Of a DNA stretch of 64,000 nt, positions 3,501-61,376 are shown in pieces; positions within the stretch are counted from its first letter, which is position 1, and each line of letters starts with the position of its first letter. The translations under genes were made by a program, and so were the position numbers. Below the pieces are notes generated by a model. That model saw only the letters and a program-made list of their open reading frames with translations, searched no databases and was not told the origin of the DNA. The stretch is from Ianthella basta (Eukaryota > Porifera > Demospongiae > Verongiida > Ianthellidae), in the NCBI GenBank assembly GCA_964019415.1, contig OZ025884.1, positions 5,085,233 through 5,149,232 of the forward strand, given 5' to 3'.

Positions 3501-6500
3501 CCGAGCAACGCCAAGACGAATGGTCTCCCACTGTATATGACCTTCCTGGATCTCAGCAATGCCTTTGGCTCCATCTCTCACCAGCTGATCACAGATATGC
3601 TAAAACACATATGCATCCCCACCCCAGTCATCAGCTACATCAGCAACGCCTACTCTCAATTGAAGGGCTTCGCCTCCTCACCTAACTGGACAACTGATGT
3701 GTTCCCGATAGAACGTGGGGTTTTTCAAGGTGACACTCTGTCCCCAATGATCTTCCTCATTGCCTTCAACCCCATTGTGGAACTAGCTAACATGGACAAG
3801 GCATCAGGCTTCTCCCTCAGATACCCCGTCCCATCTTCAGCTGGCTTGCCCCCTGTGAACGCTCATATCTATGTGGAGTGGAACGAGCCCTCATCAGATG
3901 AACCCCCTGGTTGGTACCGCTGCTCTGTCACCGAGTACTCGCCCGCAGGCCTGTCCACAGTCCTCTACGCCAACGGCAGCACCGAAACGGTTGACCTTCG
4001 CACAGTGCAGTGGCACCTTGCCACAGGCAACTCCAGACATTTCTTGTCCAAGGACAGCACGCCACCCACTGCAAAGGTCCCAAAAGTGAGGGCAAAGCTC
4101 CAAGACATCAAGTTCTTCTCAACCCGTCCCCACAGAGCCAAGGCATACTGTGATGACCTGTCCCTGATATCGACCAATCGTGAAGAACACAAGTCTGCCC
4201 TCCACCTCATCGACGCCCACTGTAAATGCCTGGATCTCCACCTGAAGCCATCAAAGTGTATGTCCCTGACATTCGATGGTAAGAGGATTGTCCCCAACGC
4301 CACCTTTCCCCTCTCTTCTGGCAGCACCACCAACATCCATGACCACCCGACCAAGTTCCTTGGGAAGACCCTAGCCGACTGCCCCAAGTCTACCGGCCAG
4401 AGCGCTTCACAGCGGTTGAAGGCACTCATTCTGCCCCAACTCACAGCTCTGGACGAAACACCAGTCAGAGGTGAATACAAGACATGGATGTTGAACCACT
4501 CACTGCTACCATCCCTACACTTCCACCTCATGGTCAATGACATCCCCAAGAGCCATGTCTATTCCCTTCAGAGGCTGCTCACAAGAATGGTGAAGAAGTG
4601 GCTGCACCTCCCTCGCTGCACCACTCCATCTGCTATCTTTCATCCGAACAGCCTTGACCTGAAGTTCCTCCCGCTATTCCTGGAAGAGGCCAAGATGTCA
4701 CTGCTGACAACGGTGGCTCACTCTACTGATCCACATGTTCTTGAGTGTCTCCCCTCTCTGCAGGACCCATCTTACCTGAAGGCCTCCTACCTTGACCCAA
4801 AGACTGTGGAGCGGTTCCAAACAGCCGTTGCCCAGTGCAGAGCTGAGCCACCCGCCCCTAAGAAGCCGCAGGTGCTTGCCAAGTGTAAGAAGCTGGCGAG
4901 AGAGAAGCAGGTGCAGGATTGGGAGAACCATCTCAGCCAGCTCACTGTCCAGAATGGTCTTTTAGACATCCTCCCTCTTGGTGCAGAAGACCACCTCTGG
5001 CAGCGCTTCCTCACAGGAATGCCAGCGGGTCAGCTGTCCTTTATACTGAGGGCAAGCTGTGACTGTCTACCATGCCCAAGCTCCCTGGTCCGATGGGGCT
5101 ACTCACTTAACCGGAAGTGCCCTCTGTGCAATGGCCCCCTCTGCAACGTGCAACACGTGTTGAATTGCTGCCCAACAGCCCTGACTGATGGCAGGTACAC
5201 ATGGCGCCATGACATGGTGCTCACCGCCCTACTCCCATTCTTGCAGAGGTTCAATCCAGAAGCCTCCGTCTATGCAGACCTGCCGGATCACAGAGCATGT
5301 GAATCTCCTCCAGCAACCATTCCCCCCACCATCATTGGGACCACCGCTCGGCCGGATCTCTTTATTGTGGATGGTAAGCGTGCTACCATGTTGGAACTCA
5401 CTGTGCCCTGGAACAACCTCACCAGCATCAAGAATGCTAGAGCCCGGAAGCAGGGGAAGACCAACTACCAGCTTTTGGCTTCGGACCTATCTGCCCAGGG
5501 TTACCAAGTTCAACTGCTGACAATTGAGATTGGCTGCCTAGGCCACTACACACACGAGGCTTATACGGCTCTAAGGCTTGCTGCCCCCCAGAGCAAACCC
5601 TCTGACAGACGTAAAGCCCTGACCGACGCGGCTAAAGCAGCCATCTCTGGGAGCTACATTATCTTTTCAGCCCACAAAATCACCCTGGAACCTGGGTGCC
5701 GGTTGCCCAAATGGAGACTGAGCCCCAATTGACTGCCAATATGCCCATCAATCATTGTTTTTTTTTGTTTTTTTTTTAATGTTATGTTTAGTGTATTGTT
5801 CACATGTAGCACCACCGTCCCCTTACATATCCATGTATTATTGTTCACATGTAGCACCACCGTCCCTTTACATATCCATGTATTATTGTTCACATGTAGC
5901 ACCACCACCCCTTTACATATCCATGTATTATTGTTCACATGTAGCACCACCATCCCTTTACATATCCATGTATTATTGTTCACATGTAGCACCACCGTCC
6001 CTTTACATATCCATGTATTATTGTTCACATGTAGCACCACCGTCCCTTTACATATCCATGTATTATTGTTCACATGTAGCACCACCACCCCTTTACATAT
6101 CCATGTATTATTGTTCACATGTAGCACCACCGTCCCTTTACATATCCATGTATTATTGTTCACATGTAGCACCACCATCCCTTTACATATCCATGTATTA
6201 TTGTTCACATGTAGCACCACCACCCCTTTACATATCCATGTATTATTGTTCACATGTAGCACCACCACCCCTTTACATATCCATGTATTATTGTTCACAT
6301 GTAGCACCACCCCTTTACATATCCATGTATTATTGTTCACATGTAGCACCACCGTCCCCTTACATATCCATGTATTATTGTTCACATGTAGCACCACCAT
6401 CCCTTTACATATCCATGTATTATTGTTCACATGTAGCACCACCACCCCTTTACATATCCATGTATTATTGTTCACATGTAGCACCACCATCCCTTTACAT

Positions 6501-7533: not shown

Positions 7534-9796
7534 ATGAGTTTAGCCAAGGCTGGAAGGAAACTCAAACGCACTGGAAAGACGGCTGTTCAGTTCAAGTTCA
7601 CGTCAACATTTGAGTACATTGACCTGGAATGCATCGGGGCATGGTAAGTGACGTGCTAGCTGGGTCGATCGGATTAATTGTTATGTCCGTCCCAGAACAG
7701 ACGACGATACGGATGCGCAGCGAAAGAGCGCCGGGTTTCTCCCCATGTTTACAGCGAGAAAGTGTTCATCTCGAGACGCTCTTCTGCATACTCAGTGTGT
7801 GAAGCGGCGACTTTCAATGTGGTGCGCGACTACCCCTTGCATTGTCTGCAAACGTGTTCCGAATTCTTGTATTCTTTCAGAATCTTAACCGTATTACTGA
7901 TAGACAAACGTCAACACCCATTGCTTGTAGGCCAGCATCAACAGTGAAATCGGTGGGATGTCTCTGCGTGCATATCATTGAGGTTCCCATTACTGTGGTG
8001 GTCATGTGTTTGATAGAGTAGAGGTTCATTACCACGTCTCCATAGTATAGAAAAGGGAGTAAATTTTGAGCATGTATATCATGTGGTACACTAGTATCAT
8101 GTGATACACTAGTATCATGTGGTACAGTGTACCGTGTGATATGTATGCTTGAAATTTACCCCCCTTTCCTATGTTCATGTGTTTGTTTGCAGGCGCCCGG
8201 AGAATGTGAAGGTGGTGTGGCAGAGAGCACACAGGAAGGCTGAATCCAATAATGTACGTTGCCTTTGGCACTACACCACTGTAAGCATCTGCTTATACTG
8301 CACTAGCCTCTAATCCTGCACTGGTTTACAATATGTGCAGCTTTGCACACACATGCACTTGTGATCAGTTGCCCACCCTCCACAACAGTGAAGCACTTCT
8401 TTCTCACCCCTGTGTCTTGTGGTGAATCTCTTGCATACTGATGACCTTAAGTGCTAATGTGTGTGTAAGAGAGAGATAGTGTGTGAATGCATTTGTCAAG
8501 ACTGTTATCATTTCTACAAAGTGTATTTGTCATAATGTATAAGTGGTATGTGTTGTGCAGTGAAGACCAGTCAGTATGGGAGGGGTGGCATGGCCTGTTG
8601 TGTATGTCTGTCCTTCTGCCCACAAATGAGAGTGTCAGTGATTTCAGTGACTCAACATAGCTGTACATTGCCTATGGGATACTTATATAATTATTAGAGC
8701 AGTATATTCAAATTTGGGACTATACATGATTTAATAGTCTCTCACATGATGCATCACATGACTTATGGGTATACATTAACTATGTGAATAAATGCATACA
8801 CATTATACTGTACCAGAATCAGGTGATCTATTCACACCTTATGAGATGACCTTATTTGGCTGGCTAACACGTATAATTATATAAGCAGTGCCCACTAAGG
8901 ATACAGTGTGAAGACATACTGTGCTGTTGGTGGTCAGACAACTGAGCATGAGTGTGCTGGTGTATCTTGACCTGAAATGAGGAAGTTACGGAGGCGATAC
9001 CTGGATGCAACACTCCTGTATTGAAGTACATGGCCTTTGAATAGAACACACCCACGTTAACCCTTTCAATCTTAGAAATAGCCTTCAAATGACCTTTTTG
9101 ACTAGTGACCTTTCATGTGAGAGGGGACATTATCCAGGCGTAATCATCTGAAGTGAATGAAGCCAGTTGAGCTGTACTAGCTTCATTTCAATGACTTAAG
9201 AGTTTGAAGGGGGACCTATATCTCCCAGACTGTCAGATTCTTGCATATACCCACCGATCATTGTATGAAAATTAATACCTACCATTGTTTTGAGTCAAGT
9301 GTGTCCCATCTGCACTGACCGATGTCAATGACTGTTGTAGTTTCGGCAGGTCTACACTGAAGGAATTCTCAGGAATTCTGATGTTGTTATGAATGACTCG
9401 CTGGAGTGTGAAATTGCAGTGGTCCGTACTACTTGAGTGTTCCTTCTTTAAAACAGCTACTTTCACAAGTTCTTAGGGTTTGATTATGCATAACACCTCA
9501 GTAACTGGTTCTTGCTTTCTGTGGCATTTGGTGAAGTCAAGTCCTTGCGTTGTGACTTCCGTGAAGATGTTTCTGAGTGTTCTTTCACTCCTTCTTGAAA
9601 CTAAACTTAAAACCATTCAAACATCTTCAACTAAACTGTGTAAACACCTTCAATTTGGTCACACTTATAAATTTCCCCTTCCCTTTGTAGATAAAATGGG
9701 TGCCAGTAGCGGATCGCGGTCCTGATGGAGCTACTGGGCGGGCAATGTTCGATCCCACCATTTCTGTGGCACTGATTGTCACACTCTACAGGGTAT

Positions 9797-9863
<67 letters not shown>

Positions 9864-11650
9864 AAGTGTAGGTGGGGAATTCTACGGCCAGGAGCACAGG
9901 ACGGATACTCTGATGCTGTCACTCAAGGTTGTACCCCACCTCTCTCATCTCATGGGTCTTGCAAGCCCATAGATGAGTACCCCTACTGCACCGAGGGGGC
10001 CATGCTACTGGGGTGATAAGGCTGGTGTCTCCACAGCCAACGGTGCCACTGGTCTTGTTGCCACCTGCTGGCTCACCCCATTCATGGGGTCCACTTAGCC
10101 ATGTCTTGGCTGTGGTATTACAAGTATTACAAGTACAAGTGTGTGTGTGTGTGTCACTGTCCACATATGGTATGGTGCATGGAAAAGGTAACGGTGAACT
10201 GTTAAATGGTGACATTTTACGGTTTACCATATATCGCAAAATTTTCGCGACCTAAAAATTTCGCAAATCACTGCCAAAACGGGTGTCAGAAATGTTCACA
10301 AATAAAAATTTCATGAAGGAGACTCTACAAGGTAGACATTAAGAACTTTTTAGTGTAAATAGCAGGAGCAATCACTTCTAAAATGAAGCAAACGAAAGAG
10401 CTACACGCTGTTTGTTGATCCGCCATTTTATTATGACATCATGAGCATACACAAGTTATTATTATAACATAGGTATTATATGCATATAAAATTCACGACA
10501 GAAATTTTCGTGAATTGTTTCATTCGCAAAAATTGCGAAAATTATTGGTCGCAAACATTTTGCGATATACGGTATTTTGTCTTTTAGCATTTACCGGTTA
10601 GTGGATATACGTTAACGGTTAACCAAATTAGCGGTATGAGTTAATGATTCAGCTTAACCGTTGACGCTATGTTACGGACAAACCTTTTTAGAGTACTTGA
10701 TTGGTAATACGTACGTAACTGTGTAGCCTTAGCGAAGAGAGCTTTATTGAAATAGCGTATTGTAAACAGCGAATTGTGCAGCTACACCATGAGCGAAGCG
10801 CGACCTACTGTATTGTTGTGATCATTCATGTAGAAGAAATAGAAGATGTTTTGGTTCAGATGTTGTCCAGCTATCGAAAATGGGCCGCGTCCAATGGTTT
10901 CAGACTGCTGCGCTTTAAGCGTTGGCTGTTTGAACACTAAAACTCGTTTTACGAAGACTCACCTGTAAAACACCGCTTGATCTCTGCTTATTCCAGACGC
11001 TTCAACCATGACCTCGTCAGTATGGGACTCTTTTTTCTGACACGAAGAATGACGTGCGCATATTTGGTCACGTCATTTTTCGCCAGAGCGATAGGCTAAC
11101 ATCGAGGAGCTGCTGCACAGTGAACCTTTTGGACGGCCATTTTCCTTTACGCACGAAACCATTAACCCTAAAACTGCTACCGGTTAGCTCCTAACCAGTA
11201 ATGAAACGGGGACAATTTTTGGGCGACAAACGAGACTATTCACCGAAGAGTGCTAAACGACAAATGCAATTATCGTTACCTTTTCCATGCATCGTACCGT
11301 ATGTAAATCTGTGTAGCAGTTAAACTGCAAGTTTTCTGTGAGTGAGAGCTCCACTTGCATGTCTTGCACTGGCTGGTACATCTGCTCCCTACCCCACCTC
11401 AACCCCTACCATTGTCTCCTGTTCCAAGTGGCTCCCTTAAGTTGGTGCATAGTTAGGTCCTAAAAGTAGTGTTCTTCCCCTTGCCTCAAGTAATGTATGC
11501 TTCAGTGGTATGTCCTCACATCTGTACAAGTGTTGTGTCATCTCGTGACATGTTCATGTGCTCTGTACAGGACCCCAAGACAACGGCATTTGAAGAGAAG
11601 GTGTACAAGTATTACATTGAGCATGTGAGCACAACACACATGCACGCACG

Positions 11651-11687
<37 letters not shown>

Positions 11688-14600
11688 CTGCCCATCATCT
11701 CTGAAACAGAATTTCTTGATGATGGCACAGTTCTCACGTACCTGCTTGCATCCGTTGGTTCAGTAGAGAAGTCTGCTTTACATGCAAGCGTCGCTTATAA
11801 TTGGTCATGTTGTTGCAACATACAGATTTACAATACAATATCCTGAGGTATCCAAATTTTGCAAGTACATAGTTTGAGCAATGCGGGTTTGCCCTTGATG
11901 CTAATGTATGCTTACAGCAAGAGAACAGTTAAAACAGTTTTATATATGAATGCAGTCAGACAATGGAAGCTTATTTTAACTTAGTCGGTTTTTGTACTAC
12001 CGAGGTATTGGTGGGAATAGTTATTCAGCATACCCCACATGCCCACACATACATGTTTATACACACACATTCACACATACACACTTACATGTGCACGAGC
12101 TCCACACTGCACAGTGATATTCCAGCTACCTCTCAATGGAAAATCCTACACTTGCCACTCTCTTCCCCTCCTCCCTTACAGGAAGGTGCAGCTGGGAAAA
12201 AGGTGCTCGCCTCCTTCCACTGCGATGTGTCCGAATACGCTGGGATTCCCAGTACCAAGTAGGTGTGGTAGTGGTGGGGGTGTGGACGTGTGATCGTGAG
12301 GGAGGGGTGGATATGAGCATTAGACGTACACACTCTTTGCACATGCTCACGCCAGTCATGCAAACAGGACTGCCATTTTGCGGTGACTATGACCCTCCCA
12401 AAATGAAGTCAATGGAAAATTGCAGCCATATTTATTTTCCAGTCTTTACTGCTGAAATGTAGTCAAATGTCTCCAGATTGTAGTTACCTGACTGAAGTGG
12501 GACAGCCATGTGTCCTGCAGTAGGCAGCCTAGACATCTCTGCACCGCTGGGGTTGTTGTTCGGATGTATTGTTACAGGTGGTGTGACATCGGTGTGTGTG
12601 CAAGTGTGTGCATGTGTGAAGGTGTACCCTAATTATAATGCTGACATCATACATACATGGCACCTCACCTCCACCCCTAGGAGTGCCCTTGAACTGGACT
12701 GCAAACCTGTCTCCAAGAAGATCCGCAAGGCACACATCGGAGTGACACTGGAAACAGAATACATCAAGGAAGGAGTGGCCAAGTAAGTGCACATAGACCT
12801 GAATCATCAGAAGCAGAGTGAGGCCACTCCACTTGCTAGGGTGTTGTAAGTACTATTTTACAATACCTATTCATCTTATTAGTATTGTGCTTACGTGTAA
12901 TAGTTAGACAACAGTTAGACACCGGGGTATAGGCTTTTTCTCGTGTCTGCAATGAATACATTCGAGCAGTTGCCCCGGCAATGGAGTGTATATTATTCTA
13001 CATCCAGTTGCTGTATGTGTGATACAGACCTCTGGGGTAGGAGCGGTGACTACCAGCACCACTGCAGCAGGTTTTGCCTGTGTTCTGCTTCCTTGCCACC
13101 AAATTTGCTGCTGTGTTTGTACAAAGTGTGTGCGTACATACTATCTTCTATCTCTATCTACGTACATACATACTTTTCAGCACTGTTCCTGTACTGCTCC
13201 ACTGTTCCCAGTATATTAGTCGGTCTGCCACCTCAATGACTACTTACGTACATTGTTAATTGGACAATGGGAGGAACAGTCCTCCTTCTTCATGCCTCGC
13301 TGACCAGTAATGGTACCCTTTGATTACCTTCGTACACTATATGCTTATTGAGGACTTTGAACTCATGTAAGGTAGAGTTGTGTTCACCCTCTGTACAGGG
13401 TAAGTGACTAGCAGCTCTTTCCTTCATTTCTGTAGTGATGCGGACATGCAAAGCACGTATAGTCACATGACATCTGTGGGCGTGGCCAGTGTCATGGACG
13501 ACCAGGACTCGGATGAAGATGAAACACATCCTCTTCCAATCCTTGGTGCCAATCCAACTGCTGACGAAGAAGGATCCAAAGAACAGGAAGATACCGATCT
13601 CTCTTATGGTAGGTGTGGGTGGTCTGTTGGGTGCATGAAACTGCCTGTCTAGACACCATTGGGTGCCAGACCAGGAGGTATGCTCCTTTTCAGGTGGGAG
13701 GATGCAGAGGCATGTATTCTTTTGTGGTGTAGTGTGATGTGTACTAGTGAGATATTACACAGGGTTTCCCCCAAAGGACCCACAGCAGTGCCCACCCCCC
13801 CCTATAGATAGCTTTCAGCAGATAGAGAGTTGGTCTCGGTGCTAGAAGCCATTGCCTATTGCCAGATACGTATGTCCATTAAAAGATACAAAAAAATTTT
13901 AATTTTATTTTTTTTACAAAATGACGTCACTTGGGTTAGATTTGTCACCTTTGTGGTAGCATGGGGGTTAGTACAGTAGACTGACAATCGAAATCTTAAG
14001 GTTTGAATCCATCTGATCACTTTTCTATTTTTTTTTCCATAGCAGTTTCTTTGTCCGCTGGTCTCTAGCATTGCATATATTCCTTTTTGCACCATTAGCA
14101 CAGCCCATCATGCCACAGTGGTGCATGTGAGCATCTGATTCACTGCACACATCTGCTCACAATCATGACATAGCCACTATACTGCCGCATACTACAATAC
14201 ACACGGTGCATGATAGAGAGCATCCCCCCCCCATTATTCCTTATCTGGGAGAAACACTGATGATTACACACACATTGATGCCTCTCTTTTCTGGACACGC
14301 CCACATGTACTGATTAGAGATGTGTCCTCATTTCAAAGGTAGTTTTGAATGCAACTTTACGTAGCTGGGGCAGTAAGTAGTCGATTGAGTATGTGTTGGG
14401 GGCAACATTGGAGCTAGCTTAATTTAAGTGGGGAGTACCAGAATGTGGAGATGTTAGAGAGGTTTAGCATAGCGTAAAACGAACAAATTACAATAAGTTA
14501 TTGTGCAATCACAAAATACGATAAATCACGTTTTGTATTTTATGATAGAACCGAATTTTATTGTTGCTTTTAACGGTATAAACTTCACAGTCTTTTCAGT

Positions 14601-17600
14601 GTTTGCGAGCGTCCTAGGCACTTCTACAGGGTCTGTGCGCATGCCCCTATTCAGCCAGCAAGTGGCGCACAGCATAGTTACACATGCTTTACCAGTAAGC
14701 AGGTATCCAGCTTTATCAGCACGAGTGTGCCTTCGACCATGCCTCCTGCTCCTTCTGTGGAGGTTCCTCTAGCTTATACGGTTGGCGCTCTTCTTACAAG
14801 GATACATACAGCTTCACCTGTACGTTTTAGCATTGCTGACGACGTCCTCCTGCTTCACGAGTTCGTCGGACATGAACAGAACTGCCTGTGAAGTGTGACC
14901 TGCTGCGGTGGAAGTCGCTACCGATCTAACTGCTTCTTGCACTCAATTGCAAAGGGGCGACGTCTTATTCCTGGTCGTCGTCTTCCTGCTTTGGCAAGTA
15001 ATTGTTCATTATGTGAGTTCCATCGCCACCATCTTATCACTAATACCACTTTTATCAAAATTAATTACTCTATGCCGAACATGCTGAAGACATCATAATA
15101 ATGGTACGATATCCACAGTATCTGTGGGATACCGTAACATTATTACGCTATGCTAAAGCTCTCTATTAGCCAATGAATTTCATCTGCCGATAATATAAGA
15201 ATTTTTATATTGAATCAATCAACCAGGGTCAATCTATGCAAGGGTTTCTTAACGCAGTTTCATTCCTTTAAAAGGAGCAAAGAAAACAGAGGAACCTGGC
15301 AGAGCATTCTCACTAGTTTTGAGGACTCTGGAACAAGTTGTGTCTTTTTCACGCAATTTTCTATACTGATATTCCTTTGCTGTCATTTGTATGGTTTGAT
15401 TGTGCTCTGTCACTTCTCCAGTCTCTTCTGCTGATGCTAAAGTCCTTCCGTTGGAGCTGTCATCTTCACCGTTGCTGCTACCATTTCCTTCACTGTTAGC
15501 ATCTCCTTGGTCACTACCATCTCTGTTGACAGTGATACTCTGAACTATAGTTTAGTCACCTATAGGCAATGGCTGCACCCTGCATGGTTGTGGAGGTGCC
15601 CTAGTGATACACACACACTCACCTAACCTCAACAGAAGAATTGCCCGTGCATTATGGAACAGTCTAGGGCTGGGACAAAGCTTCAAAGCTTCAAACTTAT
15701 CTTACACATTTGAAGCTTCGTTTCTGTTTCTTTGTGAAACATTTTCTTGGCAGTAACAAAAAATGAATTGCATTATAGTGCCTGCTTTGCTTTGTTCGCT
15801 CATCATTACATCCCTAACACATCCTGTCAGGATTCTGAGGGAGTAAAAACTTTAACCTTTGCATGAGACAGCCATTTTAATGAGTCTCACTAAGCATATA
15901 GCATATATGTCAATAGCTGTATACCTTATCCTACACAGCAAAGCTTTCCAAGTGAAGTTCCAAATAGTAAATTGAATGTTCATCCCAGCCCTAGAACAAT
16001 CACAGTGTGATGTTTCTCAGCGTATTAATCCACACACTCCTTTTACATATTGTTCCATTCCCCTCCTGACTTCCATTTCACTTCTTGGGTATGCAATAAT
16101 TTACGTACTAGCTCTGTAAGGGTGGCACTTTTATTGTGTAAGTGACGGAACACCCTTCATTCTTGGTTCTGCCTTAAGGGGACGTGTTTCTTGGGAGAGA
16201 AGTAGTGGAGATGGAGATGGGCATGCATGCTGAAGGCTTACTGCGTGTCTCATCTCTTCCACTTGTCCTCACAGACAAGACCGTGGCTATTATTGCAGAA
16301 TGCAGTGGTACATTTCAGGGGCAGCCCCAGCCAGAGGAACAGAGGAAATCCGAGCTTCAAAAAGAAGGGGACTCCTCACTGGAGAAAGGGGGGGCATTAC
16401 AACATGGGGAAATGAGAGAGTCCCATAGCCAGCCTGCGAATGAGGTGGGTTCCAAGCCAGAGGAATCCCAAGTTGAGACTGAGGGCCCATCCAAACTGCG
16501 GGAGGAAGGCCACTCCCAGCTGGAAAGTGAGGTGGCATCTCCAGATGAGGTAAAGGACAAGCCCCGTGAGGAGCTTGACAGCAAACTAGAAGAGCCAGAT
16601 ACTGCACAGGAAATGGGTTCACAAGCTGTGAGCAGCGAACAGGAGTCATGGCTTCTTGTCAATGGTGGGCTTGGTGCTGAGAGTGATCAGGAAGCTCGCC
16701 CTGAACCAATGGTGGATACGGAAGACAACAAAGGATCCATGCTGGATACAGCAGGTGTGAATAATATCGTGGAGAAGTTGGGAGATGGTAGTGTGTCTTC
16801 AGCCAGGGAAGGCCCAAAAGGAGTAGAAGATGCCAAACCAGGTTCGGAGCAGTCAAGCTTTGAAGCAGAAAAGGTTGTTGAACAGGAAGTGACAGCTCCA
16901 CAAGAAATTAAACCACAAGAAGAACCAAAATTGCAGGAAGGTGGCTGGATTGATGAACCTCCGGAAACAAGGAAGAACGAGGCTTCACTTCCTCCTGCAA
17001 GCTGGGTGTTGGTCACTGGAGGGGAACACCAGGACGGCCCCACATCTGTTGAAGATACTGCAGGTAATCAATTTCCAAATGAAGACCTGGGTGGAGGCAA
17101 AGGTGAACAGGTTGAAGCAGTACAAGAGCCAGAGGGAATAGCTGAGGGACTGAACAAGGGAGAGTCCCAAACAGTGCCAGAAATTGAAGGAATACCTAGA
17201 CCAGTGGAGACTGATATCACCAAAGCTGACCCAGACCCACCTAAGGAGGAAACACCAAAGATTCAGCAGCAAGCACCTGTGGAGATGCAGAGCAAAGCCT
17301 CAGAGGCCGTGGCTACATCAGCGAGTAACAATCTTGTTCCTCCTCCCAAGCCAGAGCGCGGCAGGTCTCTAAAGGGCGCCAAGGCACACACTACAGGTAT
17401 TTTCATTTTCATCAGTAGTGCAATGGCAGTTGAGTGCCTCCTTAAGCCACTCCCTATGCAATCCGTATCCACAGTAGCTTTGTATGTTGAAAGTAGTAAA
17501 ATTACCGTGGAGACAAATTTTAGTTTCTTTGATAGAATTTGCCGTGCACACGTGTGCAACACATCAAAAATAGTCAGCCTAACTTGATTTTGTGAATAGC

Positions 17601-20600
17601 AGTATTTAGCAGCTGTCCAAACTGTGGGCCACTTGCAGCTGTTTCAAGTACAGATGTACACTTGCAGCTGTTTCAAGTACAGATGTACACTTGCAGCTGT
17701 TTCAAGTACAGATGTACACAGGAAACAAGTACAAATTGGTACAAGTTGTACAAGGCACAGCTGACCTATTAATGCTCAAAGGTTTCGTTAATGACTCCTT
17801 TTGTGCGTAAGATATCCGTACCTGTTGGGCTCTGACATCACTGTACAATTTGCTTTCTACCCAGCACTTTAGAGGATAGTTACTGACAGCTGAGAGAGGT
17901 CTTTGGTACACCTACATACATACATACGTACCTGTGTTGGTGGGTATTCGTGTACAGGGATTCCTACACTCACAAGCAATGCTTTCTTGATCGGCTTAGA
18001 CCTTAGGGGAGTGCTCCACTTTGCAAAGCAGCACAAGCATTGTTCTTGGCAGTAGGTGTGTAGCTGAGTTAGGAAGATCCCATTTGTTTGCAGCTTGTGT
18101 CAGTGGTTATTGGCATATGCATTCAGTTGCGTGCACAAGCATTGTTCTTGGCAGTAGGTGTGTAGCTGAGTTAGGAAGATCCCATTTGTTTGCAGCTTGT
18201 GTCAGTGGTTATTGGCATATGCATTCAGTTGCGGATGTACCCAATGTAGCAGTGTGTGAGTTTGTTGAGATTAATTATCCACTGTGGGGTGTTCACAAAC
18301 AACACTGGCATATAGAGGTTGAGGGTTAGATATTTTGGAGTTATCAATCGTGTCTAAAGAGAAATGTACCAATGGTTGCCTGCTCATAAGAATGCTATGC
18401 AAGTATGACATGCCTGTTTACCACTGGTGTGGGGGCAGGACCTGTGGAATTAGTGTGGCATGCATGGGGCTTCCCTCACATTTGCTAATTACCTGGCCCT
18501 TTGTACTCTCCTCAAAATCAATTGATCCCCAGTGTGTAGCCAGCAGCCTGTACAGCCTTAATGTGTATGTGCTACAGTCCACACCAGGCTGCTGCCAGTG
18601 TGTGAACCCATTCATGGTACAAATGCACACACAGCAAGAAGCCAATCAATTATAGGTGCACAGATGGTCTATAGGAACACCATGTACCTTACAAATGCCA
18701 TGGCTTCCTGCTGACGTAGTCAATCTGTGGGAAGGGCAAAGTGGGAGGAGTTTGTTTCTCAAGCTTCAGTTTAGCCTGGCTGGCTGGCTGTGGTGTAGTG
18801 AGTGCTATTTTTGCTGTGTGAGCTAACACTAGTTTAGAGGAAGTGGTGAAGTTACTCTAAAGGACAGTCTGTCCATTGGCAGTCCACTCTGGAGTTAAAC
18901 AGTTGTGCAGGCCTGTAAGCTCAGGTTGTTGTTATTGACTGTGTTCTTACCACTTGTTAAACCTTCAGTTCTGATAGCAAGTCTTCTGTGCTGTGTGGTA
19001 GGCCTTCAGTGCTGTTTGGTAGGCTTTCAGTGCTGTGTGGTAGGCTTTCAGTGCTGTTTGGTAGGCCTTCAGTGCTGTGTGGTGGGCCTTCAGTGCTGTG
19101 AGGTAGGCCTTCAGTACTGTGAAGCAAGCCTTCAGTACTGTGAAGCAAGCCTTCAGTGCTGTACAGTAAGACTTTAGGGCTGTGTAATGACCTTTCAGTC
19201 CTGTTTGGTGACCCATCATGCTGTTTAGTGACCTCTCAGTGCTATGTGGTGACCTTCAGTGCTGTTTAGTGACCTCTCAGTGCTATGTGGTGACCTTCAG
19301 TGCTGTATAGTGAGCCTTCAGTGCTGTGTGGTGAATCTTCAGTGCTGTATAGTGAGCCTTCAGTGCTGTGTGGTGAGCCTTCAGTGCTGTGTGGTGAGCC
19401 TTCAGTTCTGTATAGTGAGCCTTCAGTGCTGTGTGGTGAGCCTTCAGTGCTGTATAGTGAGCCTTCAGTGCTGTGTGGTGAACCTTCAGTTCTGTGTGGT
19501 GAGCCTTCAGTTCTGTGTGGTGAACCTTCAGTGCTGTGTGGTGAGCCCTCAGTGCTGTATAGTGAGCCTTCAGTGCGGTGTGGTGAACCTTCAGTGCTGT
19601 ATAGTGAGCCTTCAGTGCTGTGTGCAGGGGCGTAGCCAGGAATTTCATTAAAGGGGTTCCGGTTTATGCTAAGAATTACGTCATATTACATCATCAAAAT
19701 GGCCGCCAAACGCGAGGTTGCTATTTTTTACAACTGAAATCATGAGGGAGACTATGTAAGTTTGAACGAAACCTGTCTTCTATAGTGCACCAGCTACAAA
19801 AAGGCCATTGGCTGCACTACCTCAAGTACCAGTTAAGTTTTCAGTAGCTACTTCTCTTCAGTTTATTGGTACTATTATTTTGAAAGGGGTTTCCTGAAAC
19901 CCCCAGAAACCCCCCTCCCTGTGGTGAACCTTCAGTGCTGTGTGGTGAGCCTTCAGTGCCACGTGGTGACAGTCTGTTGATAACACTTCAGTGCTGTTAA
20001 GTCTCCAGTACTAGTCAGCATTAGAGCAGCCCTTCTTCCCTACCCTGCTTGGTGGTAAAGCCAGTAGCCAGCTATAGCTACCAGTCAAATGTATGGATTT
20101 GGAGGGGGGAGGAGCAGCTTGTAGCTAGGAGGTCCAGGGGTCCTCCCCTGGGAAAATTGTGAAGGAGATTTTTATTGTATTTGTAAGACTCTAAGAGTCT
20201 TCTGCTATTACCTCCAGGTTGATTGAACTTGATACCAGCTAGCCTGCTAGCTAATTCCATCTGCTAAACCATAGAGGATCTATGACTAAATCTTCAAGTT
20301 GTCAGTTTGACTGTCCTTCATTCGCTGATCCACCACTTGGCCTACGTTCAAACTAGATAGTGCAACTTCCACTACTGCAGTACTACTACTGTAGCAGAAG
20401 AAGCAATAGCAAAGAATGAACATAATCATAAGACTAGGCGGCCATTTTTATGACATCACTGTTTAATAAGTAGAAGCACCTGTACACGCATCTTTTGACA
20501 TGGTGTCATTCAAAGATTTGGCTGCAGCAAAAGACACATCTTAATCCAGTATCCATTTTGCTTCCCTACCTGCCTTAGCTGTTTTAAGGCCGATTGCCAT

Positions 20601-21417
20601 TGGGTATAAAGGTGCAGTAATAATATGAATTTAAATGTCAGTGAGCTCGCACACAACAGCAATAGCAGTTGAATGACGTTTGAGTGCTTAAAATGAATCG
20701 TTGAAAAGCTGTAAGTGTTGAGGACATTTGCAGTCAAAATGTCTTACAATTGTTTGCTGTTGCTACATCTGTGGAAGCTCACTCAAAGTCATACCATTGC
20801 TGTGGCATGAGCCTCTACCACATTAACATTGTGTGTGTGTTTATGATGTATTTCTCCTCTTTTCTGCAGTCCCCGAGGCAATGTCCGTTTCTGAAAGTGT
20901 CAAGGTGGACAACCCCACCACGTCCCCTGCTGCCTCGCAGCCATGGCTCCCTGCAACAGCAAAGCTAGTTAACCAGAAAGGGGAAAGCGTACCAGTCACC
21001 GAACTGGATGATAAGCAGATCATTGGAGTAAGTTCCTTCAATTAGTGACAGGGTACTTTCTGGGGGGAGGGGGGCACTTTCCAAATGGATATTGGTATGT
21101 AGATGCTAGTCTGTATGAAAAGGGTCTGAGAAAGGGTTGGTTCTCCAATACCAGCTTCACAACAGGGTTGAAAACCTTGCCGATGTTTCGACCAGATGCT
21201 CTGGTCTTCTTCAGGGCGAAGAAAGGGGTCTTATTCCATTGGCTTAGCGGGAGGAGGATTGGAGGCTGCTGGATAAAGGAAGAGATGCGAGTGTTCCAGT
21301 CTGCTGACTGTTACAGCTTGTGTCTTTTCTCTCTTCTTTAGTTGTACTTCACTGCTCAGTGGTGCCCTCCGTGTAGGAAATTTATGCCAAAATTAATCAA
21401 GTGAGAAGTGTACATAT

Positions 21418-21489
<72 letters not shown>

Positions 21490-21841
21490 CACACACACTA
21501 CCATAATTTAATCCTGCCCCTTCTATCCATTTTATCTGACAGGTTCTACAAAGTGATGAAAGAGAACAATTGTCGTTTTCATCTCATCTACGTTTCTAGT
21601 GACCAGTAAGTTCTTGGAATGGACGCTTGAGTAGAATACTTTGGTGTGTGTGTGTGTGTGTGCATGTGCTAAATTGGTCTTGCTTAGCGGAGATTCTATA
21701 TAATTATGACTGTGCGATAATAAGCTCATGGTGAATTGGGGCTGGACATGGAGACTGGTGCACAGTGAACTGTTATCAGAGCTTGTGTGCGTAACATGTT
21801 GGAGGTTTATCGCATGAAACGACTAAATGTCCCTGTCCACA

Positions 21842-21911
<70 letters not shown>

Positions 21912-24900
21912 GCACACACACTACAGCACTGAAGATGACATGTTTGAGTACATGCAGATGCAGAAGGTCCCCTTCCCTGCCATCAGCTTCACAAGCTCCA
22001 TCGGAGATGAGCTAAGGCAGAAATATGGGTAAGGAGAACATCTCAACCAACATTCTATCTACCGTTTTTGCAATAAGCCCACTTCCTTTGTGTTCCCTAC
22101 CCTGCAGGGTCCATCAGGTGCCTCACTTGGTGATAATCAATCGTGACTGCAAGCTGGTGGATGAACAGGCCCGCAAGTCTGTGGAGCATGCCGTCACCAA
22201 TACCTCTGCGATGCAGTGCTATCAAGATTGGTTGGAGGTGGGTGGCACCAAACTGTAACCATGGTAACCACACATACTCAAGGAATGTGTGTGCTAGGAA
22301 GACCAAGACAGCTAGTAATGTGTACATCAGGTGTATATCACTTATGCATAACACTTGAGTGTGGTATAACTAATCCATATATAACCTTGTGTATGTTTTG
22401 GCAAACCATAAATATTTTAACTTGATAAGTGGCTAGTGATTGTGTTGAAGAGCTGTTTGTAATGATATTCATTGAGTGTCATGTCATGTGACTTGTGCCA
22501 CGTACATAGGGAGTGGCTCCAAAACAGGCACGGAGGACTGTGGATAGTCTTGGGAAGGCAGCAAAGAGTCCAAAGGTGTGTGTGTGTGTGTTTGTACATG
22601 TGTGCATGTGTGCACGCGCCAGCCATCACTCTCATGTCAGTGATGATGTGTGTGCATGTCTTTTCTTTCTACACGTGTAGCAACCATCTGCTGTTGCTAG
22701 TGGAACGTCTCCTCCTCCTACGTCTCCTCCTGCTGTTGTTGTCACTAGAGAGACGGAGAGAGAATTGGTGTGTTGCCTTTGAGCAATGGGTGGGAAGGAT
22801 GATGTGTTTGTGTGTGGGAGGGGGGAGGGGGATGGTGAATGATGATAAGATGGTGAATGATAATGGGAAGGATGTTCGATGATGTTGGATGGTTGATGTG
22901 ATAGGTGATGGCAAGGATGATGGAGACATTAGACTAGATTGATGTCCGTTTCTGTTCACGTGTTTTACAGGTTCAGTCTCATGGCAGAAGAACGGTGCAG
23001 TCTCAAGTGTCAAGTAGCCCGGTGGGTGGGGCAGTGGGTTGTACCGTGCATTTCCTGAATACCACAGAGTTGTTCCAGGCTTGTACCACAATACTTTCTA
23101 TGCTTGGAGGTTACAGTATGTTAGCCACATCCCTCTTTGACAAATTGTCTGCAGCGAACAAAGAATGTAACCAGCGAGGAGCTGGAGGAGAAGCTGGATC
23201 GCATTAGGTAAGTGGTAGCTATTTGTTGTTTTACAGCCATGAACGTGTGTCCATTGTCTGGACTGCAATGGAGAAACAATCCCATCTGTCACTCACCCTT
23301 GCTTTTCATGAGTTACCTCATCTCTCAAGGCGTGAAGCCATTTGTCGGGCTATCCCAATAATTGGGGGGGGGGGAAGGGGGGGGGGCCTCAAGCTAATAG
23401 TTGCCGAGCGTAGCGAGGCTCTGAATTCGGGGTCGCGGGCTCGCTTAGTGTTTGTATGTATGTATGTGGCCAACGCTTCAGGAATGCAATTAGTGTAACG
23501 CTTCAGGAATGCAATTAGTGTAAAGCTTCAGGAATGCAATTAGTGTAACGCTTCGGGAATGCAATTAGTGTAACGCTTCGGGAACACAATTAGTGTAACG
23601 CTTCAGGAATGCAATCAAACATGGCACCGGCTTGGCTGTGTTCCCCGGGTGCCCTTCTGCTGTCAGGCAGCAGTCGGCAAGGGGCGCCAGCTGTGACAAA
23701 CGAGAAGATGCTGCATGCAGTGCACAAGCGCTGCCTAACTATATAGAGACGGAGCCAATTTACATCATTGCCACCATATACCAGTTAGTCCTTGACCTCT
23801 GTAGTTGTACCTTACAGCTCCGTGCTACCCAACTGCATCCACTGTCACAAATATCCTATTTGCTTCCAGCTACAGACAACCCTACATGCCAAGTGCAATA
23901 GCACCAGCATGTGGCTTGCTAGGACTATACAATAATATAGCTTGCTTCGCGAGGCTCCTGAGTTAGCTTACAACTAGTTTTATCTTAAGCACTACATAAA
24001 ACACATCATAGCCTGGAAGGAATTCCTTAGGAGGTCAAAATGGGCGTTGAGTCAATCCCTGGTTCCTCTACGGAGGGTTGTAAAGGATCGTAAGAGGATG
24101 TTAAAGCAGGAATAGGTGTATTGTGTGAGTGCAGTGGTTCTACGGGCTCCTGTCCACAGTCTTAATAGAGTGGTGTTCAATAGGTCCAGTGAATAGGATG
24201 CAGGAATATAGAGTATCTTGTGATCTGCTGATATGCCAAGGCTGGACTCATGTAAGACACCACCCTTCCTCTAATTAACTACATGAAATCTGCAAACTGC
24301 TGCATTGGCAGGAAGTGCTATCTTCACTGCATCAGTAAATTGCATGACAGACATGTGTTCAACTTACCTTACATTGTGTTGGTATGCTTTGTGGTCTACA
24401 GCCATTTTGTGAACTTCACTTGTGATTCTGTCATGTGAGATGTACCTCTGTGTAGCATGGTCATCAGTGTCTGCCGTGCAGTGATGTTGCTTTGTTGCTG
24501 TGTGCCCAATGCAGAGAGCTGGAAGTGACCAAAGAGGCTCTGCAGCAAACTGTTACAGATGTGACTGAAGAGAATGTGAAACTGAAGGCCAGAGTGGAAG
24601 AACTGGAGGATAGGGTGAGGATGGGGAGGAGAGGGGAGAGCGGTCGGAGGGTCAGTCAGACATGGGGAAGAGAGTAGCTGGAGGAGAAGATGAGGGGAGG
24701 AAAATGGTAGGGTACAAGAACTAAAGGGAAGCTCTCTCTTTCTCCCTCTCCACTGTCTTCCCCTCATTGACCTGTAGCTGAGGGAGGTGCACACAGTCCA
24801 AACTAACCTTCTGCGACAGAAGAAGGACTTGGCGGATCAGATGAACCTGCGTGGTTGGCTGATGAAGAGAGGAGTGAGTGGACCCACTGGACGCAAGTGG

Positions 24901-25940
24901 AGGAGACGGTTCTTCAGAACAGACCAGGGCAACCAGCTCTGTTACTACAAGGGGACAACTGGCGAGCCTCAGGGGTGAGGATGTGAGGGTGTAGGTGTGA
25001 CTGCTGGTGTGAGGGTATGAGGGAGTGAGGGGTGCTGGTGCGGAGTGAGGGGTGCAGGTGTGGAGTGATGGGTGCAGGTGTGGAGTGATGAGTGCAAATG
25101 TGGAGTGATGGGTGCAGGTGTGGAGTGATGGGTGCAAGTGTGAAGGAGTGATGGGTGCAGGTGTGGAGTGATGGGTGCAAGTGTGAAGGAGTGAAGGGTG
25201 CAGGTGTGGAGTGATGGGTGCAAGTGTGAAGGAGTGATGGGTGCAGGTGTGGAGTGATGGGTGCAAGTGTGAAGGAGTGATGGGTGCAGGTGTGGAGTGA
25301 TGGGTGCAAGTGTGAAGGAGTGAAGGGTGCAGCAGTGAAGGGTATAAAGACCAGGCAGTTTCCAGTTCTCCTGTCATCCACTTGGTCTGTGTTGTATCCA
25401 TTCAGGTGGATTGACCTCCTCAGAGTGCAGGATGTACGCAAGGCAAGAAGTGAGGCACAAGACAAAACCAACCTCACCTTTGAAGTCATTACAGATGGGC
25501 GGGTGTATGAACTGCTTGCTGAGAATGCTACAGACATGGATAAGTGAGTGGTTGTTGATTAAAGGGAGTTACTAGATTCAAGAAGTGGCCCAAGAAATTA
25601 AACACGGCCAAGTGCAGTCTGCTTGAAACTATTTGCTTGGGAGATCACTGCATAATCTATAACTGCATTGTGGAGCTTAGCTGCTTAGCACTGATGGTTG
25701 CTTGTGTAGTTGGTGTAGAGAAGCGCTTGTCAGATGTGTTTGGTGCAGAGACTATGTTGTCTGTTGTCTGTTTCATTGACAGTCTACTCATACAGTAGTG
25801 GTACATGTGTGTGTTGCTTGTGCAACTTGCTTTACCATCTCCTGTTGTCGGTCCACAGGTGGATAACAGCCATCAAGAGCCTTGCTGAATTCTGTCAGCG
25901 AAACGCGGAAGGTGGTCAAGCCACGTCTCATTCCTCGTGA
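7534..25940 (+). CDS. NT-C2 / nucleoredoxin-like / coiled-coil / PH fusion protein
   Basis: Predicted 1028 aa from 21 exons: 7534-7643, 8193-8253, 9691-9792, 11571-11624, 12182-12258, 12681-12782, 13436-13608, 16275-17396, 20870-21027, 21342-21400, 21543-21605, 21927-22028, 22108-22237, 22510-22575, 22681-22767, 22971-23021, 23155-23207, 24515-24614, 24778-24974, 25406-25543 and 25859-25940. All phases agree. Residues 1-190 match the EHBP1 NT-C2 domain (KLKRTGKTAVQF; later EGVANDADMQS), which binds membranes in that family. Residues 227-600 are acidic and probably disordered. Residues 601-771 are a nucleoredoxin-like thioredoxin fold with WCPPC (about 660-664) and cis-Pro VPHLV. Residues 844-912 are coiled coil and 913-1018 a PH domain (LRGWLMKRG...KWITAIKSL). 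A membrane-tethered oxidoreductase is inferred. Alternative: two genes, the second starting at ATG 20882. Each domain call is firm; the single-gene model is moderate. Confidence 0.72.
9798..9862. repeat. (TG)n microsatellite just after a splice donor
   Basis: About 65 bp of TG repeats starting 5 bp downstream of the exon 3 donor of the NT-C2 fusion gene. Confidence 0.95.
9887..10135. mobile_element. SINE-like interspersed repeat, copy 1
   Basis: About 245 bp starting CCAGGAGCACAGGACGG and ending GTATTACAAG followed by a TG tract. A second copy, roughly 90-95% identical by eye, lies at 50851-51087 in the same orientation. Both are preceded and followed by (TG)n. No coding capacity. I cannot place a convincing Pol III A/B box, so SINE status is inferred from size and copy structure. 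Confidence 0.65.
10164..11303. mobile_element. 1.14-kb nonautonomous DNA transposon
   Basis: Terminal inverted repeats of about 30 bp: CATATGGTATGGTGCATGG on the left, and CATACGGTACGATGCATGG on the right after reverse complement; both continue AAAAGGTAACG. No transposase frame inside. A second inverted-repeat element (10225-10574) is nested within it. It occupies intron 3 of the NT-C2 fusion gene. Confidence 0.7.
10225..10574. mobile_element. 350-bp MITE nested in a larger element
   Basis: The left end TACCATATATCGCAAAAT and right end (reverse complement) TACCGTATATCGCAAAAT form inverted repeats that continue into TTCGCGACC-like sequence. The interior has further palindromic AT-rich sequence. 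TA at both ends suggests a Tc1/mariner-type target. Confidence 0.7.
11652..11686. repeat. (CA)n microsatellite
   Basis: Short CA tract about 28 bp downstream of exon 4 of the NT-C2 fusion gene. Confidence 0.9.
13955..14040. mobile_element. tRNA-like SINE head or degraded tRNA pseudogene
   Basis: GGTTTGAATCC near 14000 resembles a Pol III B box, and GGGGTTAGTACAG about 35 bp upstream could be an A box. A T-run follows near 14030. The T-stem does not pair well, so it is not called as a functional tRNA gene. Confidence 0.35.
14456..15164. mobile_element. 0.7-kb DNA transposon with AGAGAGGTTTAGC ends
   Basis: The left end AGAGAGGTTTAGCATAGCG and right end (reverse complement) AGAGAGCTTTAGCATAGCG are near-perfect inverted repeats of about 22 bp, with TA flanking both sides. 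No long transposase frame. Near the right end is an extra palindrome (about 15103-15145). It lies in intron 7 of the NT-C2 fusion gene. Confidence 0.7.
15665..15993. mobile_element. Nonautonomous hAT element with 8-bp target duplication
   Basis: Ends TAGGGCTGGGA and TCCCAGCCCTA are perfect 11-bp inverted repeats of hAT type. The flanks GAACAGTC (15657-15664) and GAACAATC (15994-16001) form an 8-bp target duplication with one mismatch. 329 bp, no coding capacity. Confidence 0.82.
17632..17719. repeat. 29-bp tandem repeat, three copies
   Basis: Three near-identical copies containing CTTGCAGCTGTTTCAAGTAC in intron 8 of the NT-C2 fusion gene. Confidence 0.85.
18031..18234. repeat. 102-bp tandem duplication
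   Basis: Two adjacent, essentially identical copies with period 102 bp, beginning GCACAAGCATTGTTCTTGGC. The near-identity points to a recent duplication. It is open in one frame because 102 is a multiple of three, but no exon evidence is seen. Confidence 0.88.
18975..19640. repeat. 21-bp minisatellite
   Basis: About thirty units of the form CCTTCAGTGCTGTGTGGTGAG, with TATAG variants, in intron 8 of the NT-C2 fusion gene. The array continues for about 40 bp after an inserted element (19921-19960). Open frames through it are artefacts. Confidence 0.93.
19625..19921. mobile_element. MITE inserted in the 21-bp minisatellite
   Basis: About 295 bp starting CAGGGGCGTAGCCAGG and ending CCCCCTCCCTG. 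The minisatellite unit is cut in mid-repeat and resumes on the other side, so the insertion is certain. The duplication is 2-4 bp (TG, GTG or TGTG) and cannot be fixed because the target is itself repetitive. Confidence 0.75.
21136..21224. repeat. Interspersed repeat, CTTCTTCAGGGCGAA motif, copy 1
   Basis: Contains GATGTTTCGACCAGATGCTC then TGGTCTTCTTCAGGGCGAAG. Related copies lie at 59582-59665 and 52750-52832. Family unknown to me. Confidence 0.55.
21421..21499. repeat. (CA)n microsatellite
   Basis: Interrupted CA tract in the short intron after the CPPC-encoding exon. Confidence 0.95.
21845..21923. repeat. (CA)n microsatellite abutting a splice acceptor
   Basis: The tract runs to within a few bases of the acceptor of the exon starting at 21927, so it forms most of the region usually taken by a polypyrimidine tract. 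Confidence 0.95.
23355..23960. repeat. Repeat-rich insertion with 25-bp array
   Basis: A G-run, then GAGCGTAGCGAGGCTC, then six 25-bp units (23471-23615) containing CTTCAGGAATGCAATTAGTG, and at the far end a similar CGCGAGGCTCCTGAG block. It probably represents a mobile element, but no clear terminal repeats could be placed. Confidence 0.5.
24985..25332. repeat. Minisatellite, GGTGCAGGTGTGGAGTGAT units
   Basis: Alternating short units (GGTGCAGGTGTGGAGTGAT and GGTGCAAGTGTGAAGGAGTGA) fill the intron inside the PH domain of the NT-C2 fusion gene. Long minus-strand open frames rich in HLHPSLHTCT come from this repeat. Confidence 0.92.
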
Positions 25941-26039
25941 CATGCATGGATTATATATTAGATGCATTCTTATTGTAGCTTTGACTTTTGATTGCGTTAG
26001 TTGTGCGTGTTTTCTAGTTAACTCGTGTGCGGATAAAAA
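25941..26039 (+). promoter_or_regulatory. 99-bp gap between two co-directional genes
   Basis: This short spacer must hold the 3' end of the NT-C2 fusion gene and the AFG2A start region, unless the UTRs overlap or the two are co-transcribed. It is T-rich, with an acceptor-like TGTTTTCTAG at 26008-26017. No AATAAA is seen. Confidence 0.45.
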
Positions 26040-28716
26040 ATGTCTGCCAAGAAGCGAACGCCGAAGAAGGTCTCATCCAACCCCCGGAGGCCCTTCACAG
26101 CTCCAAACACGTCTACAAAGAAGCAAGGCTTCTTTCTCGGGTCTGCACTGTGCGTGGACAGGAGCATGTTGGGTACGTAGGGCGCTGCAGGCGCCCGGGT
26201 GCATAACAGCAACACTTTGCAAGAGCACGCAAATCTGTAACCATTTTCCATCACAGTAAGATATTATAGACGCGCTGCTGAAGTTTCTTGTAATACTTTC
26301 AAGCAACATGCGTGCTTGAAATATATACGTATTAACTCTTGTGCTGCTGCCAATAGCTGTCCTGCTTCTGTCTGCATGCGAGCTAGCATGTTGCGTTCTG
26401 ATTGAGTTACTAGCTTTAAGTCTGTATGATAAATGGCATGCACTACAGACAGTTCAAATGGACATGCATGCATAGGTCGAATGGTAGCTTAAATGATGAT
26501 CATGTTACTACAGTGAAACCTGTCTGTGATGGTCACTGAGTTAGGCAGCCACCTCTCTGAAACAGCCAGCCTCCCTGGCCCCAAATAGCACTAAAACATT
26601 GCAGACTACCTCTGTAGAGCAGCCACCTCTCTATACAGATCAGGTAGAACTGGCACACAGGTGGCTGTCTTAGACAGGCTCGACTGTAATTTACCACACC
26701 ACCATCAGTTACGTACTACTTGTTGTTAAGGAATGAATGGATAGTTAATGTACCAGGAGGCAATTCTTCCTTCATTCGTTGGCCACCTCATTGGCTGGCA
26801 GCTCAGGAGGGGCCTGGGTGTAGTAGCATTTGGTACAGAGAGGAAGGGTAATGTTTTGGTTGCTCAATACGTAATTGCAATGTGAGATATTGTTGGGATA
26901 TTGTATTAATAATATGGGAGTTCTTTGAACTTAGAATGTAGCATCTTGAATATTCATAGATTAGTAAGCATTCTGAGATTTAATACTCTGTGTATTTAGT
27001 GGGTGATCAAGAATACTATTATCGTGCTAGTGTATGGCATATGGTTCTTCTATGTTCATATGTAAGCCAAATGGAAGCAATGGAATTGTGCTTTGTGGAT
27101 CATTTTGTATTTCAATGGCACATAGCTACATACAGTGTAGCTGAATTGCTGTATAGCGTTGGTGTCCTTGTACATTGGATAGGATAGGCGTGGCAGGACT
27201 GTATGTAGAGGGGCCACATCATACTGCAGGTGAGCACACCCCACTGCGGGAGGACCTCGTTTACTGTCACCCTGATGCCATGACGTCATGTGGGTTTGTC
27301 ATCAACCAGCCTGTCATGGTGACAATCAAGGTGACACGGGAGCCAACTGTCACAAGTGATGCATCTGACGTGGGACGAAATGTCATAGTAATGAAGGCCT
27401 GGCCACTGTCAAGAGTCCCTCTTGACCGTAAGTGTTTCCTGCACTGCCCCTAACCTCCTTGACCAATGTAGTCTTCGTTAGCTGAATTTGGTGTGCTAGT
27501 AATAATTGGCTGTTGCTAGTCCAACTGTTTTGAATACCAGTACTTGTTTGAATTGCCTCAGCAGTGATCCCATTGGGTGGGTGGATGACACCTTCTCATG
27601 GGCCTGCTTCCTTGTTAATACAGTTTAAGTGCATACATTTACATATTAATGATGTACGGTGCTGTACATGCTATGATGTATGTTTTTGTTTCTTCGCTTC
27701 CTGCCTTCACGGTTGTAAGGGGTGGGGTTGACAGAAGCAATTCACAGCTGCTATGGCATTGCTGATGGGCAGGAAGTGAGCATGGCTTGTTTGAGTGCTG
27801 CAGTGAGCGATGCTGAGGAGGTGGTCCTGAGAACATGGTGAGGAGGAGTGCCCTGTAAGAAGAGAGCTAGAGAAGAGTAAGACCCTGTAATTGGAATGCT
27901 AGCGGGGAAGATCCTCCCATTATGAAGGAGTAATCACACCTGTCTGTGTGTGTAGATTTGCGTGGTAGCTATGAAGTCCATTTGACACGCTGAGCATTTA
28001 CTTTGAAAAGTGGCACTTACGAGACAGCGTGTATTTTAGTTGTTAGTTCTTCACTCCTAACCTTCCTCCACTGCAGCTCGCCTGTACGATTCTCTCTTGA
28101 CGCTGCCTTCAAAAACTACCTCCTACGCACCCTTGGTCAGTACCTCGTTATACGAATGAATTGTTCACTAGTGACGATTGCTCTCTCCATCACCTTTCCA
28201 TCTCTGACTGCCCGCAGATGGACGTCATGTGTTGCCCGGCAACAGCATTTCTGTCCATTACTTTGGTGACACACTGCACCTGATGGTAGCGTCTGTGTCT
28301 CCTGTCAACTCATCTGCATTGGAACCATCATCGGCCATGAGCCCACCCAGTGGGCACACAGGTGCTGACCTTAATGACAGTCATGACATTGACACCAAAT
28401 TAGGTAACTTGTCAGTGGTAGATGTCAGTGGGGCAAGCGACGGTGACACTAGTCGACTGTCCACTGATGACAGTGTGATGGAAGCTTCTGAACTAGCCTC
28501 AATTGATGCAATAAAGACTGTTTGCAAGATCAGAGCGAGGACTAAGGTTATGTTTGATTTGGAGCTGGAGGGACTGACCAATAGGAAGGTTAGCCTTCTG
28601 ATGCTTTATGTATGGTCCTTTGATGGTGCTTTTCACATGCATCTCCTTCAATTTACTGTACGTAGTGTGATTTTACATGGTTAATAGTGATTGATTAGTG
28701 GTCCTCTTTTCCTGTA

Positions 28717-28792
<76 letters not shown>

Positions 28793-43352: not shown

Positions 43353-43460
43353 ACTGTTTCTCTTCCGCAGGGTAGTGATTGTTCCGTGCCTGCATCGAAG
43401 AGCTTTACCGCAAGAACGGAGCCCGCGCCATTCGGCTTTGTCCGACATCTGCTGTGAACA

Positions 43461-60691
<17,231 letters not shown>

Positions 60692-61369: not shown

Positions 61370-61376
61370 ATGGCGG
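61367..61376 (+). promoter_or_regulatory. TISU/YY1-like element over the MCM8 start codon
   Basis: AAGATGGCGG spans the ATG at 61370, matching the core of the translation initiator of short 5' UTR element. This supports the chosen start and suggests a very short leader. Confidence 0.5.

Follow-up and report, generated by a model that had tools for sequence, protein, structure and literature searches.

An inferred sponge gene joining an EHBP1-type NT-C2 domain, a nucleoredoxin-like thioredoxin and a PH domain in Ianthella basta

Here, we describe a gene in a 64,000-nucleotide stretch of the genome of the sponge Ianthella basta (contig OZ025884.1, positions 5,085,233 to 5,149,232; hereafter the window) that, in our preferred reading, encodes a single 1028-residue protein composed of an NT-C2 domain, an acidic linker, a thioredoxin fold, a presumed coiled coil and a PH domain, and most likely acting as a membrane-tethered thiol-disulfide reductase. 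We give this reading a probability of about 0.6. The protein is most likely a new combination of known parts, its transcript being deduced from genomic sequence. The window lies on one contig (C17) of a genome of 209 Mb in 96 contigs, and all coordinates below are those of the window.

The rebuilt gene lies on the + strand and has 21 exons, with its first codon at 7534 and its stop codon ending at 25940. The joined coding sequence of 3087 nt (1028 codons and a stop) has no internal stop, all 20 introns are bounded by GT-AG, and no phases conflict, which bears out the 21 exons and 1028 codons without a phase clash proposed in the initial annotation. Both other frames contain stops in 15 of the 21 exons; exon 8 is open over 373 whole codons, while the remaining frames there hold 10 and 30 stops. 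When scored with a codon model derived from the MCM8 open reading frame (ORF), which is independent of this gene, 19 exons have positive values in the frame used, although exons 16 and 21 do so by a narrow margin; the signal is weak in exons 15 and 16, and six of the 21 score higher in a different frame. A Pfam scan of the 1028-residue protein listed 22 families at E<=1, and three domains, NT-C2, Thioredoxin_8 and PH, each exceed their curated cut-offs, in agreement with the domain calls made earlier. Rfam gave no match anywhere in the 64-kb window.

The NT-C2 domain and a following acidic segment are encoded by exons 1-7 (7534-7643, 8193-8253, 9691-9792, 11571-11624, 12182-12258, 12681-12782 and 13436-13608, + strand). 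The Pfam match covers residues 19-162 (E=3.2e-10, 40.3 bits; cut-off 25.2), and an NT-C2 exon on another contig (C12) of the same genome aligns with residues 94-184 at 32%. On the same strand, a CH match (25.6 bits, or 26.2 with neighbours; cut-off 26) follows that exon at a distance of 1.6 kb, so the genome seems to retain an EHBP1-like gene; no bMERB match was found on C12, the four in the genome all lying elsewhere. Two intron positions with matching phases are common to the NT-C2 part and the C12 gene, whose splice sites were read by eye: one before DPKTTAFEEK (SSKQALFESK on C12; phase 0) and one between EGVAN and DADM (EGKAT and DDDM on C12; phase 2). An EG-x-A-x-D-x-DM motif and an acidic stretch after the NT-C2 domain are likewise common to the EHBP1 type. 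The Pfam match, the C12 alignment and the two shared introns uphold the earlier label, and by sequence the NT-C2 part is of EHBP1 type. The only solved-structure match to residues 1-198 at E<=10, ribosomal L3 (E=0.33), was rejected as chance.

Read in translation, the NT-C2 part carries two basic clusters, RKLKR (residues 8-12) and RAHRK (48-52). The NT-C2 domain of C. elegans EHBP-1 is reported to bind endosomes rich in PI(4,5)P2 and to need RRLRR, which precedes strand 1, and HRRRK, which lies in strand 2 (PMC4894640); the sponge clusters stand in similar places as judged by eye, not from an alignment. An overlay assay showed binding of PI(3)P and PI(5)P, and of phosphatidylserine with calcium, by the human EHBP1 NT-C2 domain (PMC7442826). 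EHBP1 and EHBP1L1 combine NT-C2, CH and bMERB domains (in part from PMC7442826). Unlike EHBP1, the sponge protein has neither a CH nor a bMERB domain among the 22 Pfam families listed, and it ends in TSHSS with no CaaX box; where EHBP1 has CH and bMERB, it has the thioredoxin, the presumed coiled coil and the PH domain.

The acidic linker (residues 227-600, net charge -44), which is probably disordered, is encoded by exon 8 (16275-17396, + strand). It includes two W-x-x-V motifs, in ESWLLVNGG and ASWVLVTGG, with the tryptophans at 352 and 470. Both fit the pattern of Atg8-binding motifs, and the linker might possibly recruit Atg8-like proteins, although such short patterns often arise by chance.

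Exons 9-13 (20870-21027, 21342-21400, 21543-21605, 21927-22028 and 22108-22237, + strand) encode a single thioredoxin fold, matched by Thioredoxin_8 at residues 650-743 (E=7.5e-21, 74.7 bits; cut-off 27). The active site WCPPC is intact at 660-664, as is the V-P turn with its presumed cis-proline. The best solved relatives are 2lus (2e-26) and 4fyu (4.4e-21), aligned through WCPPC, followed by tryparedoxins from 5.8e-19. Elsewhere in the same genome, a gene on C23 has two Thioredoxin_8-type folds, and its first fold aligns with the present thioredoxin at 41% over 69 residues; we take this gene to be nucleoredoxin (NXN), and a further gene on C10 to be NHLRC2-like. The Thioredoxin_8 match, WCPPC and the two solved relatives support the description nucleoredoxin-like given at the outset, and the domain resembles the CPPC clade of nucleoredoxins and 16-kDa thioredoxins. 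Nucleoredoxin has tandem folds, as seen in the C23 gene, whereas the present protein has one Thioredoxin_8 stretch only and, unlike nucleoredoxin, has it fused to predicted lipid-binding domains. Tryparedoxins and 16-kDa thioredoxins are stand-alone proteins of ~16 kDa; here, if there is one gene, the fold lies inside a 1028-residue model.

Between the thioredoxin and the C-terminal domains, exons 14-16 (22510-22575, 22681-22767 and 22971-23021, + strand) encode a proline/serine-rich stretch. Each of them has a length divisible by 3 and is in phase 0 at its start and end; they could therefore be skipped without a frameshift, and the spacing between thioredoxin and PH domain could vary through splicing. 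Exons 17-18 (23155-23207 and 24515-24614, + strand) are heptad-rich and are presumed to form a coiled coil running into exon 19; in a simple, crude heptad scan the top windows begin at residues 864-870, and also at 990-992 inside the PH domain. Exons 19-21 (24778-24974, 25406-25543 and 25859-25940, + strand) encode the PH domain and the C terminus. The PH match covers residues 914-1010 (E=4.9e-15, 56.4 bits; cut-off 25.1), and the motif K-x-G-x9-R-x-R-F-F at 920-936 fits K-x-[GASP]-x(6-11)-[KR]-x-R-hyd-hyd, the phosphoinositide-binding PH motif, in which hyd is a hydrophobic residue. The closest solved relatives are TAPP1 (1eaz, E=3.1e-8), 3tfm and 1upq. TAPP1/PEPP1-type PH domains share the K-x-G...R-x-R-F-F motif; the sponge protein has one PH domain, with a thioredoxin before it. 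The domain thus resembles those of TAPP and PEPP, and is predicted to bind lipid.

The NT-C2/linker half is joined to the thioredoxin/PH half across intron 8 (17397-20869, + strand), and we favour one transcript for both halves on indirect support, the splice itself being inferred. In the frame of exon 8, coding scores are +0.288 for the final 63 codons of the exon, -0.185 for the 63 beyond the donor and -0.201 +/- 0.128 for 205 overlapping intron segments; since the score falls to intron level, coding seems to cease close to the donor at 17396 and not at the stop ~190 bp further on. The exon 9 acceptor is the third strongest of 20 (99.8th percentile of AG sites), and because it is so strong, another exon very probably precedes exon 9. 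Observed/expected CpG (CpG o/e), measured in 600 bp around the ATG with percentiles relative to the window, is 0.96 (97th percentile) at exon 1, 0.81 (94th) at the next gene and 0.76 (93rd) at MCM8, but the ATG of exon 9 has 0.33 (45th) and no 600-bp window in intron 8 exceeds 0.40, so that a CpG-rich promoter sign is lacking there. CpG peaks in intron 7 (14401-15200) and intron 3 (10401-11200) were considered as hidden promoters and rejected; each has at least 40 other matches in the genome. For the intron 3 peak, most of these involve the first 175 bases, and the others cover parts of the sequence after them.

Intron 8 is repeat-rich, with ~1.6 of its 3.5 kb, nearly half, in repeats. It contains tandem arrays of 29 bp x3, 102 bp x2 and 21 bp x31, and within the 21-bp array a dispersed repeat of ~296 bp (19625-19920) whose copies reach 96% identity. 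This element has at least 40 further matches in the genome, and no inverted repeat was detected in it. Further dispersed repeats lie at 20286-20469 and 20710-20829; one with 6 other matches ends ~40 bp before exon 9. The search for dispersed copies covered 19625-19925 and 20250-20868.

Several observations weigh against a single gene and its frame. The intron 8 donor, CAG/GTATTT (4.1 bits), is the third weakest of 20 (94.5th percentile of GT sites), and at 3473 bp the intron is the longest of the gene. Codon 605, the fifth of exon 9 (20881) and ahead of the thioredoxin, is an in-frame ATG. The short exons 10 and 11, which encode the thioredoxin core, have negative coding scores. The CpG comparison is based on the gene's own start and on two outside gene starts that we positioned ourselves, and CpG peaks also fall in repeats and at unexplained places; one of them, in intron 17 (23201-23600, o/e 0.77, in a stretch to 23615), lies over a 25-bp array between the thioredoxin and PH exons. 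Poly(A) signals of the ATTAAA/AATAAA form occur once in intron 8 (19647, inside the dispersed repeat) and once in intron 7, and none was found in 25941-26500 after the stop; among ten variant signals sought in 25941-26200, only GATAAA was present, at 26032. The one-gene proposal of the initial annotation gains support from the drop in coding score past 17396, from the strength of the exon 9 acceptor and from the absence of CpG enrichment where exon 9 begins; the poor donor and the long intron count against it. The ATG in exon 9 and the stop after exon 8 that it pointed out both exist, at 20881 and 17585-17587 and not at the exact positions it gave (20882 and 17586).

The best surviving alternative is that one gene yields several products, the full fusion together with a short NT-C2-linker form ending at 17585-17587, an internally started thioredoxin-PH form, or both. 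This is possible but doubtful: the weak donor with an in-frame stop ~190 bp on, and the ease with which the frame-neutral exons 14-16 would give splice variants, speak for it, and the end of the codon signal at 17396 and the absence from intron 8 of CpG enrichment that would mark an internal promoter speak against it. We consider it unlikely that the thioredoxin is a scaffold or redox-sensitive binding module and not a reductase, by analogy with what has been proposed for nucleoredoxin, which, going by a title cited in PMC3415087, retains an inactive pool of Dishevelled; the intact WCPPC and V-P turn argue for retained chemistry. Two adjacent genes, one for NT-C2 and linker (exons 1-8) and one for thioredoxin and PH, the latter starting at ATG 20881 with a non-coding first exon within 17.4-20.87 kb, would account for that in-frame ATG, for the continuation of the exon 8 frame to a stop, and for the weak donor and very long intron. 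We nevertheless judge this arrangement improbable, since the extension past 17396 is intron-like in score, so that exon 8 in any case probably depends on a further exon after it, the strong exon 9 acceptor calls for an exon ahead of it, for which the exon 8 donor has the right phase, CpG-rich starts are lacking near exon 9 and in intron 8, and a dispersed repeat occupies the sequence to within ~40 bp of exon 9. An assembly error fusing two loci is very improbable, for although tandem arrays such as those of intron 8 are error-prone places, the window is free of N and both sides of the intron lie on one contig.

If both halves do form one protein, the NT-C2 and PH domains, with their basic clusters and lipid motif, would each bind phosphoinositides, and the protein, tethered to membranes at both ends, would be placed at sites on the plasma membrane or on endosomes that contain the two lipids together. 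Two copies would perhaps pair through the coiled coil, and the acidic linker would give the thioredoxin reach. The substrates to be reduced would be oxidised cysteines in signalling or trafficking proteins close by, such as those arising when NADPH oxidase has been locally active. Binding and activity are thus predicted, and location, dimerisation and substrates proposed, from sequence features. Given the intact WCPPC, the simplest function would be that of a reductase held at the membrane by two-lipid coincidence. Should the transcript be real, thiol-disulfide chemistry would be localised by a lipid-anchoring enzyme itself and not by a diffusing thioredoxin, the EHBP1 NT-C2 module would have been recombined with an enzyme, beyond cytoskeletal and Rab-binding parts, and the membrane confinement of redox signalling, an open question, would become directly testable.

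When the full-length protein was searched against the genome (E<=1), the best candidates gave 25 matches, 20 of them within the gene's own span on C17. The other five are partial, to thioredoxin on C23 (2), NT-C2 on C12 (1), and PH on C8 (1) and C23 (1), and no second copy of the gene was among these candidates. Together, the resemblances of the NT-C2, thioredoxin and PH parts suggest a duplicated EHBP1 N-terminus that was recombined with a thioredoxin-PH unit. With CH, bMERB and CaaX box absent and a single thioredoxin fold present, the protein belongs to neither the EHBP1 nor the nucleoredoxin family. More tentatively, it may represent a new family of dual-lipid-anchored thioredoxins, in which an EHBP1 duplicate lost its actin/Rab-binding half, acquired an enzyme of nucleoredoxin type together with a PH domain, and acts only where two phosphoinositides coincide. 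Apart from one unrelated genome-wide association study, no report of the NT-C2, thioredoxin and PH combination was found in the open-licence literature, which fits the original remark that no known family joins these parts. In contigs of prokaryote genomes, the NT-C2 part had 27 pattern matches and the coiled-coil/PH part 399, with no relatives in either case; in viral contigs, NT-C2 had one pattern match and the thioredoxin four, again with no relatives. As these collections are prokaryotic and viral, the lack of relatives there says little.

Other features of the window also lie on the + strand. Upstream, in the region 3225-6858, an uninterrupted 835-codon reverse-transcriptase ORF (RVT_1, weak zf-RVT) is LINE-like and ends ~1.8 kb before the gene; a 45-bp x21 tandem array follows, mostly open, in ORF 5755-6858. 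Downstream, the next gene (26040-28960) has a likely ATG 100 bp after the stop of the NT-C2/thioredoxin/PH gene and an AAA ATPase Walker A motif, GPPGTGKS, at 28930, which suggests an AFG2/SPATA5-like ATPase. The region 43200-54000, with a CpG peak (43201-43600), a CH match (~44642-44779) and an ORF with WW and IQ matches (53240-53731), suggests an IQGAP-like gene. MCM8 (61370-63919) is a single uninterrupted 849-codon ORF, notable near an intron-rich gene, and may be a retrocopy or a case of intron loss. Elsewhere in the genome, 30 of 45 papain-family matches (one of them partly masked) were inspected for silicatein-like genes; they include Cys-type and degenerate copies, and a single regular expression detected no Cys-to-Ser form among them, a result that speaks neither for nor against a sponge. 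A cluster of papain-family genes on another contig (C6) is degenerate around the active site (NQGEIGDS or NQGETGSY) and is probably non-catalytic.

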